A stretch of 64,000 nt of DNA, from the NCBI GenBank assembly GCA_016744435.1, contig JADGEJ010000006.1, forward strand, positions 44,276 through 108,275. The letters are read 5' to 3'. The stretch is from Lentibacter sp. (lineage in GTDB: Bacteria; Pseudomonadota; Alphaproteobacteria; Rhodobacterales; Rhodobacteraceae). The stretch's first letter is position 1; the number at the start of each line of letters is the position of its first letter. Positions 10,307 through 46,872 of this stretch are shown piece after piece. Position numbers and translations under genes: made by a program. The notes beneath the pieces were generated by a model. It was not told the DNA's origin. It saw only the letters and a program-made list of their open reading frames with translations, and searched no databases.

Positions 10307-11578
10307 TTACGTATTCATAGAGTCGAAGAACTCGCCATTTGACTTGGTTTGTTTAAGCTTTCCAAGCAAGAATTCGATCGCATCAGTGGTGCCCATCGGG
10401 TTAAGGATACGGCGTAGAACGAAGGTTTTCTGCAGGTCTTTAGCATCAACCAGCAATTCTTCTTTCCGTGTGCCCGACTTGAGAATATCCATAGCAGGGA
10501 AGACGCGTTTATCGGCGACTTTGCGGTCAAGCACGATTTCTGAGTTACCAGTGCCTTTGAACTCTTCAAAGATGACTTCATCCATCCGTGAGCCTGTATC
10601 AATCAGCGCAGTCGCGATGATCGTCAATGAGCCGCCTTCTTCGATATTACGCGCAGCACCAAAGAACCGTTTAGGACGCTGCAAGGCGTTGGCATCAACG
10701 CCACCAGTGAGGACTTTCCCTGATGAAGGAACGACTGTGTTAAAGGCCCGGCCAAGTCGGGTAATTGAATCAAGCAAAATAACCACATCACGTTTGTGTT
10801 CTACAAGACGTTTAGCTTTCTCGATAACCATCTCTGAAACGGCTACGTGACGAGTTGATGGCTCATCAAAGGTTGAGGAAATTACCTCACCTTTAACAGA
10901 GCGCTGCATGTCAGTTACTTCTTCTGGGCGTTCATCGATCAGCAGAACGATAAGATAACACTCAGGGTGGTTCTTTTCGATACTATTGGCGATGTTTTGC
11001 AGCAAAACAGTTTTACCAGTCCGTGGCGGAGCAACGATCAGAGAGCGCTGGCCTTTACCGATAGGTGAAACAAGATCAATGATGCGCGCTGATTTATCTT
11101 TGATAGTGGGATCTTCGATCTCCATCTTCAGCCGCTCATCAGGGTAAAGTGGCGTGAGGTTATCAAAAGCAATCTTGTGACGCGCTTTTTCTGGTTCTTC
11201 AAAATTGATCTTAAGAACATCTGTCAAAGCAAAATAACGCTCAGCATCTTCTGGCTGCTTCATATGGCCTTCAATGGTGTCGCCCGTCCGCAAAGAAAAT
11301 TTACGGATCATATCTGGCGAAACATAGATGTCATCGGGGCCCGGAAGATAGTTAGCTTCTGGAGCACGGAGGAATCCGAAACCGTCTTGAAGAACTTCAA
11401 TGACTCCATCACCGCCAATAACCCAACCTTCTTCAGCGCGCTCTTTAAGGATCGAGAACATGATCTCGCCCTTACGCATAGTCGTGGCATTTTCGATTTC
11501 AAGATCTTCAGCCATAGTCACGAGATCTTTGGGATGCATGGCTTTGAGATCAGCCAGATTGATGTTTTCTTGTGTCAT
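10307..11578 (-). CDS. rho: Rho, transcription termination factor
   Basis: Rho is the hexameric RNA-dependent ATPase that ends untranslated transcripts. The N-terminal RNA-binding cold-shock-like part contains [23 protein letters not shown], and the ATPase core has Walker [16 protein letters not shown] and the Q/R-loop segment. I start at ATG 11578 ([11 protein letters not shown], 423 residues) with AAAGG upstream, not the track's extension at 11599. It borders the proposed oriC directly and is followed by mnmE. Confidence 0.97.
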
Positions 11579-11733
11579 GACATAACCTTTCACCCGCATG
11601 GCGAGCGTTTATCGTTTTATCTTGGAAAAACCTATACGCCCGGATGGGCAGGATTGACGTCTAGATAGGCATCAAACAGAATTGAGTCAATGAAAAGGAG
11701 AGGTGAAACAACCAGCACTCTTTGCAAGAAATC

Positions 11734-11742
11734 TTATCCATA
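11734..11742 (+). promoter_or_regulatory. DnaA box (one mismatch)
   Basis: TTATCCATA differs from TTATCCACA at position 8. It is the box closest to rho in the putative oriC. Confidence 0.55.
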
Positions 11743-11816
11743 AGGCCAGCGCTTGGCTCTTCATTAATAAGAAAGAAAGATAGAAAGGATGATGATAAAG
11801 TAGGGACAGCGTTTTC

Positions 11817-11825
11817 TGTGGATTA
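11817..11825 (-). promoter_or_regulatory. DnaA box (one mismatch)
   Basis: The minus strand reads TAATCCACA, one mismatch at position 2. It directly abuts the T-rich run that could be the unwinding region. Confidence 0.55.
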
Positions 11826-11830
11826 TTTTT

Positions 11831-11839
11831 TTATCCTCA
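11831..11839 (+). promoter_or_regulatory. DnaA box (one mismatch)
   Basis: TTATCCTCA has one mismatch at position 7. With the box at 11817 it flanks the T-run on the other strand, giving a convergent pair. Confidence 0.5.
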
Positions 11840-11874
11840 AGTTTCCCGAGAAGAGAAAGCACGGTTTGGAAATT

Positions 11875-11883
11875 TGTGGATAG
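11875..11883 (-). promoter_or_regulatory. DnaA box (one mismatch)
   Basis: The minus strand reads CTATCCACA, with only position 1 off consensus. A weaker ATTTCCACA lies 70 bp further on the same strand (11949-11957). Confidence 0.6.
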
Positions 11884-12101
11884 AAGTTCTTAGAAGCAAG
11901 AAAGCAGTGAATACTTAGGAAAACCTAGTAACCCTAGACAATGGGCTCTGTGGAAATCTCTTGTATAACTCAACACCACTACATTTTCTTCACAAGAAGA
12001 AATTATCCTTCTCCACCGTTGATAGAAACCTTGAAACAACTCCAAACTTGGCCAAGTTATCCCAATCTCCCAGATATGTTGGAATTCATCCACTTTGTGC
12101 A

Positions 12102-12117
12102 TTAAGTGTTCGTTAAC
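12102..12117. promoter_or_regulatory. CtrA-type box TTAA-N7-TTAAC in oriC
   Basis: TTAAGTGTTCGTTAAC fits the full CtrA recognition sequence (TTAA, seven bases, TTAA, with the often-present trailing C). It ends 13 bases before the perfect DnaA box. In Caulobacter, phosphorylated CtrA bound at such boxes blocks initiation. The same role here is inference. Confidence 0.6.
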
Positions 12118-12129
12118 ATTTCAACGGGG

Positions 12130-12138
12130 TTATCCACA
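12130..12138 (+). promoter_or_regulatory. Perfect DnaA box overlapping the maf start
   Basis: TTATCCACA matches the DnaA consensus exactly. Its last A is the first base of the maf ATG, so DnaA binding could also affect maf expression. Confidence 0.85.
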
Positions 12139-12737
12139 TGGCACGGCCAATCATCTTAGCATCGAGCTCTCAGATCAGAGCTGATATTTTGACAGCGGCT
12201 AACGTAGTATTTGATGTTGTTAAGCCTCGGGTAGACGAAGAATCGCTTAAAGCAGCGCTTGATTCGGAGGATGCAAGCTCGCGCGACATCGCCGATGCTC
12301 TTGCGGAAGCGAAAGCGCAGAAAGTGGGAATGAAACACCCGGAGGCTTTGGTTTTAGGCTGCGATCAAGTGCTTAGCTTTGAAGGCAAGGTTATGTCTAA
12401 GCCGCAAGACATCAGTGAAGCGCGCCTCCAGTTGGAACAACTATCCGGGCAGAAGCATACGCTGCTCTCGGCCATCGTGATCTTTCACGATATGCGCCCT
12501 ATCTGGCGCCATGTCGGCCAAGTCAGGTTGCATATGCGCGATATTTCAGATGCATACAAAGAAGACTATCTCGCAAGAAATTGGGACAGTATTAAAACCT
12601 CAGTTGGCGGCTATAAACTAGAAGAAGAAGGGGTACGCCTGTTTAGCAAAATCGAAGGCGACTACTTTTCTGTACTAGGTTTGCCGCTCATCGAGCTGAC
12701 AAACTATCTGACACTCTCAGGAGACCTAGAGGGATGA
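12138..12737 (+). CDS. maf: Maf-family nucleotide pyrophosphatase
   Basis: Maf proteins hydrolyse (modified) nucleoside triphosphates and are linked to septum formation. The N-terminal ILASSSQIRADIL corresponds to the usual LAS(x)SPRR phosphate-binding loop but is divergent. LGCDQVLSFEGKVMSKPQD supplies the catalytic Asp region, and the central GGYKLEEEG is typical of the alphaproteobacterial branch. The 199-residue length fits. It is first in a run of four overlapping genes leading away from oriC. Substrate preference cannot be read from the sequence. Confidence 0.88.
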   Translation: MARPIILASSSQIRADILTAANVVFDVVKPRVDEESLKAALDSEDASSRDIADALAEAKAQKVGMKHPEALVLGCDQVLSFEGKVMSKPQDISEARLQLEQLSGQKHTLLSAIVIFHDMRPIWRHVGQVRLHMRDISDAYKEDYLARNWDSIKTSVGGYKLEEEGVRLFSKIEGDYFSVLGLPLIELTNYLTLSGDLEG

Positions 12738-40430: not shown

Positions 40431-41975
40431 TCAGTTAACTGACGTCAATTCTTGAAAAGCTTTTCGGGTTGGCTGAGCTGACGTTTTGAATGTAATGATC
40501 GTGGCGGTGCCGTCATGCGTGCGCATCTCGAATGGTAGGTCGGGGCCTTTGCTCAGCGGGAGAGTACCCTTAATCGTACGCACCTCGCGCGGGTTATTTA
40601 GGGCGCGTTTGAACCCATCAAGTTCCGAGCTGGCTGAAAACGTCGTCGCGCAGTGCTTTAGGACTTCTTGCATCGAATGATCGGCTACGAGAGCTTCCTT
40701 GGGCAGGTCGAAAAATTCCTTAAATGCTGTGTTCCAAAATGCGACTGAATCATCGGTGCAGAACACGATGATCGCATCGGAAAGAGTTTCCAGCGCAGTG
40801 TTCGCCAACTCGATCTGGCCTTTGAAACGGCGCGTTAGCGAGATTTCGGCGGTGATGTCTTCGATGAGAATAGCGATTGCGCCATCAGGGTGCGGCCGGC
40901 CGGTGACACGGTAGGTAAGGCCGCTTGGTAAGCCCCAGGTTTCTTGGTAGTCGCCACCAGATGACTTGACGACCAAATCGGCAATCTGACGTCTCCAAGT
41001 AGCGTAATCTTTAGGCTCAGGCATGATCCTGTTTTCGCGCAGCTTGTCAAAAAAGCTCTGCAAGTTGGGTTGCGCTGACAAGAACTGAGCGGGCAAAGCA
41101 GAAAGATCAACCAGCGCTGGGTTGAACAAAACAAGCTTACGGTCTCTGTCAAAAATGGCGAGGCCGATTGACAGTTGCGCGAAGGTTTTTGCAAGTGTTT
41201 GAACAAACTTGCGCTGAGCTGTTTCAGCGGCGATCAGACCGTCAACATTGATCGCGTAGAGCAGAAATCTGCCTTGGTCGATTTCGATCATAGTGATGTC
41301 AAACCAATGTGTTTCATCTCCGGTTTGAGTGCTGGTGAAGGAAACACGATCTCCTTGGCCATGCATAGCGCGCAAGCTGTCAAATTCGAAGACAGTAGCC
41401 AACTCGGCGCCAGCAGGGCTAAGGGCAGAATAGGTTTGGTTGGCCCACTCCAATTGCCCGCCGGCGCCCGTAATCCAAACTGGGTGCGGCACCTTGTTGA
41501 GCGAGGCATACATCTGCTTCCTGTGCGTTTTGTTTGTCATGGCTTTATGTCGATCGACAGCACTCGGAATGACAGGATCAGCGACTCTAAAGAGGCAGTT
41601 TTCTCCGTCGACGCTGAGGTGCAGTTGAGCCATATCGTTGCTCACAGAAGACGATAATATTTCTTCCAAAACCCCTACTTTGCCTTGATCGTCGAGAAGT
41701 GCTTTCAAGGAGTCAAACCGTAAGGAGAGCGTGTCGCAGACCGCTGCATATTGCACGTCTTTAGGGCTGTCTTTGCCAAGAAGCTCAAGCGCGCTTTGGC
41801 TGGCTGCTTCACATTGTTTGCCCAAGAACTGAAAGGAAATGTCTCCGTATCGCTGCTCTTTGGCTTGAGTCGCGGTGACGGATGTAGAGTAACCGAACCT
41901 GACAAAAACCAGAACCGCAGCGACCGTTATCACGCTGACAACAATGATCAGAAAGATATCAATAAGGGTAATCAA
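40431..41975 (-). CDS. Membrane-anchored multi-PAS sensor without kinase domains
   Basis: This is a 514-residue protein with one N-terminal membrane span (about residues 4-26), a linker and three PAS-like repeats: NKVPHPVWITGAGGQLEWANQ (about 155), LSIGLAIFDRDRKLVLFNPAL (about 285) and TLSDAIIVFCTDDSVAFWN (about 400). The protein ends right after the third PAS, with no HisKA phosphoacceptor, HATPase, GGDEF or EAL domain. It directly follows regB, and a CtrA-type box lies about 42 bases upstream of its start. It may modulate a partner kinase. That is inference. Confidence 0.8.
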   Translation of the reverse strand: MITLIDIFLIIVVSVITVAAVLVFVRFGYSTSVTATQAKEQRYGDISFQFLGKQCEAASQSALELLGKDSPKDVQYAAVCDTLSLRFDSLKALLDDQGKVGVLEEILSSSVSNDMAQLHLSVDGENCLFRVADPVIPSAVDRHKAMTNKTHRKQMYASLNKVPHPVWITGAGGQLEWANQTYSALSPAGAELATVFEFDSLRAMHGQGDRVSFTSTQTGDETHWFDITMIEIDQGRFLLYAINVDGLIAAETAQRKFVQTLAKTFAQLSIGLAIFDRDRKLVLFNPALVDLSALPAQFLSAQPNLQSFFDKLRENRIMPEPKDYATWRRQIADLVVKSSGGDYQETWGLPSGLTYRVTGRPHPDGAIAILIEDITAEISLTRRFKGQIELANTALETLSDAIIVFCTDDSVAFWNTAFKEFFDLPKEALVADHSMQEVLKHCATTFSASSELDGFKRALNNPREVRTIKGTLPLSKGPDLPFEMRTHDGTATIITFKTSAQPTRKAFQELTSVN

Positions 41976-42017
41976 CGCTTGGAACTCCTGCTAAGCGACA
42001 GTGTCTTTCGCGAATGG

Positions 42018-42033
42018 TTAATATGTCGTTAAC
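42018..42033. promoter_or_regulatory. CtrA-type box upstream of the PAS gene
   Basis: TTAATATGTCGTTAAC fits TTAA-N7-TTAAC and shares CGTTAAC with the box in oriC. It covers the regB stop codon and ends about 42 bases before the PAS gene start, a normal promoter distance. Confidence 0.5.
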
Positions 42034-45805: not shown

Positions 45806-46238
45806 AGACACTTTCGCCGTCTCGCTTGTAAGGCTCGAACCCGCGTGACTGATAGTAGGCAAGGCCGCCCTCGTTGTAGCTGCGAATGGTGGCGTTGATC
45901 CAGCCGTAACCCAGCGTGCTTGCGGCGTTGCGCGTTGCCTCAAACAAGGCCGAGCCGATGCCAAGTTGTGTTTTGCCGATGCGGGCAAATGTGGCGATAT
46001 CGCAAGCCTCTACCGGCAAGGCCGGGTTTGGCCTGACGTATTGAAACCCAAGCAGTTCCCCAGCGTCGTTTTCTGCGAGATGCCAAGCCGATTGGGCCTT
46101 GTTAGAGCCTATTTTTGCCTTCATATCACCGCTTGAAAGCGGGGTTTGCATAGCCGTTGTGCCACCATGTGAAATGATCTCATTAAGCAGCTCGGCCATG
46201 ATGCGGGCGTCAAGCAAGGCGGCGCGACGAATGTGCAT
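45783..46238 (-). CDS. GNAT-family N-acetyltransferase
   Basis: This is a 151-residue protein beginning MHIRRAALLDARIMAELLNEI, with the acetyl-CoA loop in RIGKTQLGIGSALFEATRNAA and a C-terminal AYYQSRGFEPYK typical of GNAT enzymes. Substrate is unknown. It is downstream of the HD gene with a one-base TGATG junction and overlaps the GT61 gene tail-to-tail by 23 bases. Confidence 0.82.
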   Translation of the reverse strand: MHIRRAALLDARIMAELLNEIISHGGTTAMQTPLSSGDMKAKIGSNKAQSAWHLAENDAGELLGFQYVRPNPALPVEACDIATFARIGKTQLGIGSALFEATRNAASTLGYGWINATIRSYNEGGLAYYQSRGFEPYKRDGESVFMRYGLG

Positions 46239-46843
46239 CAGAGCTGCTCCAGCAAAGCACTATGGCGCGCGGTGAAGTCGTTGCGTGCCTCAACAGGGGG
46301 CCGCAACTGAAGCGACAACCCGTCAAGCAGCGCGGTGTCAGGCTTGCCAAAGAACTTGTCAGATTCCTCAACCGTGAACCCGGCGATCTGCGTCGCCTCG
46401 AGCCAAGCCGAAATCTTGTCAGCTTTCTTGATCTGCTTCTTCACCGCGACGGGGATTTTGGCAGGCAAGCCAAAGCGAATGTGAATGGCCGCAGTGAGGC
46501 GCTCGTCAAGTTCTTCGTAGCCCGGGCCGACGGCGTTTTTTACAGGGCTGATCATGTCACCGATCACATATTCAGGCGCGTCATGAAGCAATGCGGCGAG
46601 CTTCCACTTGGCGGGGGCGTTCGGCACGATCCGGCAAAACAGCGCCTCAACCAGCAGAGAATGCTCGGCGACGGAATAAGCAAAGTCGCCAACCGTCTGT
46701 CCGTTCCAGCGCGCTACAAAGGCAAGGCCATGGGCAATATCTTCGATCTCAATGTCGATTGGCGTTGGGTCAAGTAAGTCGAGCCGACGGCCAGACAGCA
46801 TGCGCTGCCACGCGCGGGCTTGTTTTTGGTGTTGTTTCGCCAT
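46238..46843 (-). CDS. HD-domain hydrolase (YfbR-like)
   Basis: This 201-residue protein contains the HD metal motif in VAEHSLLVEAL, AALLHDAPEYVIGDMISP and a later KADKISAWLEA, close to YfbR-type 5'-deoxyribonucleotidases. The usual YfbR role is dephosphorylation of dNMPs. Substrate here is inferred from similarity only. The promoter side carries a CtrA-type box 14 bases from the start codon, which is very close, so binding would likely repress. Confidence 0.8.
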   Translation of the reverse strand: MAKQHQKQARAWQRMLSGRRLDLLDPTPIDIEIEDIAHGLAFVARWNGQTVGDFAYSVAEHSLLVEALFCRIVPNAPAKWKLAALLHDAPEYVIGDMISPVKNAVGPGYEELDERLTAAIHIRFGLPAKIPVAVKKQIKKADKISAWLEATQIAGFTVEESDKFFGKPDTALLDGLSLQLRPPVEARNDFTARHSALLEQL

Positions 46844-46856
46844 GATTGGTCCTTCG

Positions 46857-46872
46857 TTAACCCTTTATTAAC
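46857..46872. promoter_or_regulatory. CtrA-type box between the HD gene and a secreted protein
   Basis: TTAACCCTTTATTAAC is TTAA-N7-TTAAC. It lies 14 bases upstream of the HD gene start and 135 bases upstream of the divergent secreted-protein gene. Confidence 0.4.

Follow-up and report, generated by a model that had tools for sequence, protein, structure and literature searches.

A CtrA-type site overlapping a weak DnaA-like box in the putative replication origin of a Lentibacter chromosome

Results

The rho-maf gap and its DnaA-type boxes

In the window, i.e. the whole stretch of 64,000 nt of Lentibacter sp. DNA that was analysed, we considered as putative oriC the gap (positions 11600-12137) separating rho, on the minus strand to its left (10307-11599; recognised from its open reading frame and translation, and syntenic in relatives), from a maf-like gene on the plus strand to its right (12138-12737; an open reading frame with homologues in 95 of 101 relatives). 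This gap is a good origin candidate because the GC skew flips from negative to positive at about 10-12 kb of the window and parA and parB are found 5-7 kb away. DnaA-type boxes and blocks conserved in the genus are also present in it. The location of the origin proposed in an earlier note on this DNA thus agrees with the skew change, with parA/parB and with the DnaA boxes and, the evidence being good but indirect, the gap is likely to be the chromosomal origin. An Rfam scan of the whole window returned no matches.

The gap contains one perfect DnaA box and several near ones, of which CTGTGGATTA, GTTATCCTTnTCCAC and the box at the maf start are kept in the 8 genus members. The last of these, TTATCCACA (12130-12138, plus strand), is the perfect one; it overlaps the maf start codon, is nearly invariant across the genus and is frequent in the family. 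Invariant blocks of the 8-member genus alignment include GTGCAnTAA (8/8) and CTGTGGATTA. Motif searches together with this alignment also gave a conserved DnaA-like box, TAATCCACA, at 11817-11825 on the minus strand, and a conserved block with DnaA-like motifs, TTATCCTTCTCCACC, at 12003-12017 on the plus strand.

The CtrA-type box at 12102-12117

Read directly in the sequence, the rho-maf gap holds a full CtrA-type box of the strict form TTAA-N7-TTAAC, TTAAGTGTTCGTTAAC, at 12102-12117 on the plus strand, which was recognised by motif match and conservation. A motif scan of the window confirmed this site as it had been described earlier, and the perfect DnaA box does lie downstream of it, at a distance of 12 bases rather than the 13 bp given. 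Directly to the left of the CtrA-type box is TTTGTGCATTAA, which read on the minus strand is TAATGCACA (12096-12104), a DnaA-like box that departs from the consensus TTWTNCACA at its second base and has 3 bases in common with the left half of the CtrA-type box. Given this overlap, the CtrA-type box starts within a weak DnaA-like box and stops 12 bases before a strong one. Binding of DnaA to TAATGCACA is a prediction.

The presence of the CtrA-type box exceeds chance. Precisely, TTAA-N7-TTAAC occurs at 3 places of the 64-kb window against 0.25 expected (the 3 places give 5 motif rows since GTTAA-N7-TTAAC matches both strands), and at about 13 places in the 3.25 Mb of the whole genome. When dinucleotide shuffles were made from the 550-base gap, 1.25% of them contained the full site, and 11600-12149 has a single site matching 7 or more of the 8 CtrA bases.

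The genome encodes a CtrA protein that is 75% identical to Caulobacter CtrA and, within the C-terminal DNA-binding region, fully identical to it from residue 147 to residue 202 (both values against a hand-entered Caulobacter reference sequence). A ChpT domain was also found in the genome, with scores over the cut-off.

Conservation in the genus and in the family

Among the 8 genus members the strict site is present in 4 (G000, G005, G001 and G003), occurs with one mismatch in 2 (G006 and G004) and is lost in the other 2 (G007 and G002). The right half of the box decays within the genus and GTGCAnTAA is the invariant part, so that the DnaA box alone could account for the invariance. Outside the genus, strict sites were found at a similar offset in four genera (G016, G398, G102 and G292), where the full CtrA site occurs without the TTAATGCACA DnaA-like box, and sites with one mismatch in G059, G117, G315 and G298; in the genus and in the other genera the offset from maf ranges from -31 to -37.

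A pattern search for the strict site followed by a TWTCCACATG box at maf gave six known cases among 397 family genomes, this count covering the located matches (G422, G186, G320 and G106 fall outside it) and leaving uncounted the matches in G219, G111, G328 and G054, which have neither maf nor rho nearby. The strict site seen here is missing from nearly all of the 397 genomes in this search. Conservation in relatives, which the earlier note had made a test of its reading, was consequently partial: the site is retained in half of the genus and recurs in four other genera, and is lost in two genus members and absent nearly family-wide.

In an MnmG tree G398, G117, G016 and G059 form one group, and G102, G315 and G298 group with G235, apart from the G398 group. 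Clustering of the strict label on this tree was not significant among the rows listed, which were partly picked for having the site, and for this reason we used the tree only as information on which genera neighbour each other.

Spacing-specific enrichment in the family

AT-rich origin DNA can produce false sites of this type, as in Y. pestis, whose AT-rich origin has two CtrA-type sites in a bacterium without CtrA (PMC10225481). In rho-maf gaps we counted TTAA-Nx-TTAA with either C after it or G before it, for x from 2 to 13. In the first 111 genomes the count was 10 for N7 and 0-2 for the other spacings. The prediction of enrichment was written down before 60 held-out genomes were fetched, and these agreed with it, with 3 for N7 and no more than 1 for each of the remaining spacings. 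When the whole gap was considered in 163 genomes outside the genus, strict TTAA-N7-TTAAC was found in 11, whereas each of the other spacings gave 0-2; in shuffles the mean was 0.6-1.0 and the largest value 5. In register outside the genus, at least 7 of the 8 bases were matched at N7 in 8 of 103 genomes (1.9 expected), and at spacings other than N7 in 0-3 of the 103. As a positive control we considered Caulobacterales-like loci, in which N7 sites were upstream of maf in 26 of 31. CtrA-type sites with the N7 spacing are specifically enriched in the rho-maf gap of the family. This spacing control answers the objection about false sites in AT-rich DNA for the family, and does not answer it for the single site at 12102-12117.

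Besides the sites close to maf, strict N7 sites form another zone farther upstream of this gene, at a distance of about 226-284 bases, in AT-rich DNA and not obviously on DnaA boxes; this second zone was seen in genomes G042, G164, G308, G031, G273, G250 and G286 (loci L030, L111, L149, L268, L228, L107 and L234, respectively).

The same overlap at a second DnaA-like box

In three further genomes (G144, G207 and G304) the strict site is more than 300 bases from maf and lies on the other conserved DnaA-like box, i.e. the one corresponding to TAATCCACA, which is of the same kind as TAATGCACA. The composite in these genomes is GTGGATTAA-N7-TTAAC, and its overlap is identical to that at 12096-12117. 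The gaps of genomes outside the genus hold 19 GTGSATTAA boxes; TTAA follows at N7 in 3 of them and at any of 19 other spacings in none, where the 3 composites were counted genome by genome, irrespective of the kinship of the genomes. Searched in 397 whole genomes, the composite gave 15 matches, 5 in the rho-maf gap and 10 outside it. Since such a DnaA box provides the left half-site for free, a repeated origin of the composite would be easy. A pair of DnaA boxes was also considered as an explanation of the N7 spacing and was rejected, because the usual reverse-forward pair of the family is TGTGGATTAnnnnnTTATCC-like and has a shorter spacing.

Discussion

Proposed role of the box

The likeliest reading of these data is a CtrA-DnaA overlap like that of Caulobacter, which may have evolved or moved repeatedly. 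At the locus itself, we favour by a little the interpretation that TTAAGTGTTCGTTAAC is a genuine CtrA-binding element of the origin: phosphorylated CtrA would bind at 12102-12117, covering the weak DnaA box of the minus strand (12096-12104) and excluding DnaA from it; it might perhaps also be an obstacle to DnaA at the perfect box, 12 bases further downstream. Initiation would be tuned as a result, in the way that CtrA tunes it in Caulobacter. A direct competition between CtrA and DnaA had been suggested for this place. The strict site, the presence of CtrA and ChpT, the enrichment of N7 and the identical overlap at two places support this reading in part; the overlap, however, is with the weak minus-strand box, which had been missed, and not with the perfect box, and the competition is deduced from the anatomy of the site.

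Binding by CtrA is likewise a prediction, as is an effect on replication, whatever its direction and size. In Dinoroseobacter shibae, the loss of ctrA leads to fewer, and not more, chromosomes per cell (PMC4046655); a simple repressor role does not fit this result, and the sign of the effect could be positive or indirect. Moreover, the Rhodobacterales studied can do without ctrA (PMC8116508). Also against the favoured interpretation are the poor retention of the right half in the genus, the scarcity of the site among the 397 family genomes, and the presence of a single box where Caulobacter has five. More tentatively, as an idea that may well prove wrong, we propose for the Rhodobacteraceae a composite switch in which TTAAC was added 7 bases from a reversed TAATSCACA DnaA box, repeatedly and at two origin boxes, so that a CtrA dispensable for growth would set origin firing in certain states.

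Alternative explanations

The main rival, which we judge unlikely, is that CtrA binds the box and controls the transcription of maf, or a transcript running into the origin, and not DnaA directly. In such a case the box would overlap the -10 or the start region and CtrA would act mainly as a repressor, as it does in Caulobacter from sites over -10 regions (PMC6180460). The position of the box, 21-36 bases before the maf start codon, is suitable for this, and members of the genus have a TTGAAA/TTGATT-like hexamer about 15-17 bases before GCATTAA; nevertheless, a consensus scan gave no sigma-70-like promoter at the site, and if the site were at the -35 of a maf promoter the transcript would start inside the gene. 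The composites of G144, G207 and G304, which stand on a different DnaA box at more than 300 bases from maf, also speak against the control of this gene. A second rival, which we consider even less probable, is that the conserved element is the DnaA-like box TTAATGCACA alone, with a right half that is neutral or a chance neighbour and a CtrA that is inactive here. The invariance of GTGCAnTAA in 8 of 8 genus members, beside a variable right half, is what this reading would require; against it, three other genomes have right halves beside such boxes at N7, whereas 19 other spacings gave no case, and G016, G398, G102 and G292 retain the full CtrA site in the absence of this DnaA-like box.

Least probable, in our opinion, is that the box is either a chance match in AT-rich origin DNA or the site of another regulator, e.g. 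a LexA-like GTTC-N7-TTTC that partly overlaps it. A full site in about 1% of the gap shuffles leaves some room for chance, but the N7-specific enrichment seen across the family speaks against this explanation. As for LexA, 7 of the 8 letters are readable at 12108-12122, and this candidate was rejected because in the genus alignment it fails in most members.

Relation to known systems

Going back to the favoured interpretation, i.e. binding of CtrA over a weak DnaA box, the closest known system is the origin of Caulobacter crescentus, Cori, which also has full TTAA-N7-TTAA sites in a genome with CtrA and ChpT (PMC4468827). There, CtrA sites cover or adjoin the two G-boxes of moderate affinity, both of which carry a T to G change (PMC4468827); the box considered here is a candidate for a similarly weak DnaA box, altered at one base, the second of TAATGCACA, and overlapped by a CtrA-type site. 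The two systems differ in that Cori has five CtrA sites and the gap described here one, in that the Caulobacter origin is in the hemE gap and not between rho and maf, and in that ctrA is essential in Caulobacter and dispensable in the Rhodobacterales studied. Furthermore, the action of CtrA at Cori is known, whereas here there is a motif from which binding and function are predicted.

Outside Caulobacter, a CtrA ChIP-seq peak adjoins the origin of Hyphomonas neptunium (PMC7200025), a stalked budding bacterium, so that CtrA at the origin is there documented by ChIP-seq, and in our case, in a different family, by a sequence motif. For the origin of Rickettsia prowazekii, sites for CtrA and IHF have been proposed (Brassinga 2002, as cited in PMC4468827); this lineage is distant, and the likeness considered is in the presence of CtrA-type sites at an alphaproteobacterial origin. 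Dinoroseobacter shibae belongs to the same family as the genome studied here, and its CtrA phosphorelay affects chromosome number, the loss of ctrA giving fewer cells with more than two chromosomes (PMC4046655); in the available part of that paper we found no mention of a CtrA site at the origin.

A 2015 review described CtrA sites as unseen in origins other than that of Caulobacter, with the possible exception of Rickettsia, and reported independent use in some marine caulobacters (PMC4468827). We found no report of CtrA sites in Rhodobacteraceae origins in the literature searched, from which most subscription papers were excluded. As the sites in the origin gap recur far above chance in a minority of the family, CtrA may control replication in this family as well as in Caulobacter, from which such control is mainly known. 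If CtrA binds here, such control would be more widespread and evolutionarily mobile than the review states, and there would be a route to explaining the change of chromosome number in Dinoroseobacter CtrA mutants despite the dispensability of ctrA. The composite also offers a point mutation by which CtrA binding could be separated from DnaA binding.

Other CtrA-type boxes of the genome

The other two places of the window with the strict motif are palindromic. The box at 42017-42033 (GTTAA-N7-TTAAC) is just upstream of a PAS-domain gene on the minus strand (40431-41975), which resembles the kinase-less DivL of Rhodobacterales, and suggests a feedback of CtrA on its own relay. The box at 46856-46872 precedes an HD-domain (YfbR-like) gene on the minus strand (46238-46843) by 13 bases and an ahcY-like gene by about 550 bases. 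Overall, the 64-kb window, close to the origin, holds 3 of the approximately 13 TTAA-N7-TTAAC places of the genome (binomial P about 0.002).

A further strict CtrA-type box, at 1501-1517 of locus L184, is upstream of a small open reading frame and of a regulator with a LuxR-type autoinducer-binding domain, a setting reminiscent of luxR2I2 in Dinoroseobacter shibae with its CtrA sites. Both DivL-like and LuxR-type genes are kinds of CtrA target predicted in Rhodobacterales (PMC2877005, PMC4046655).
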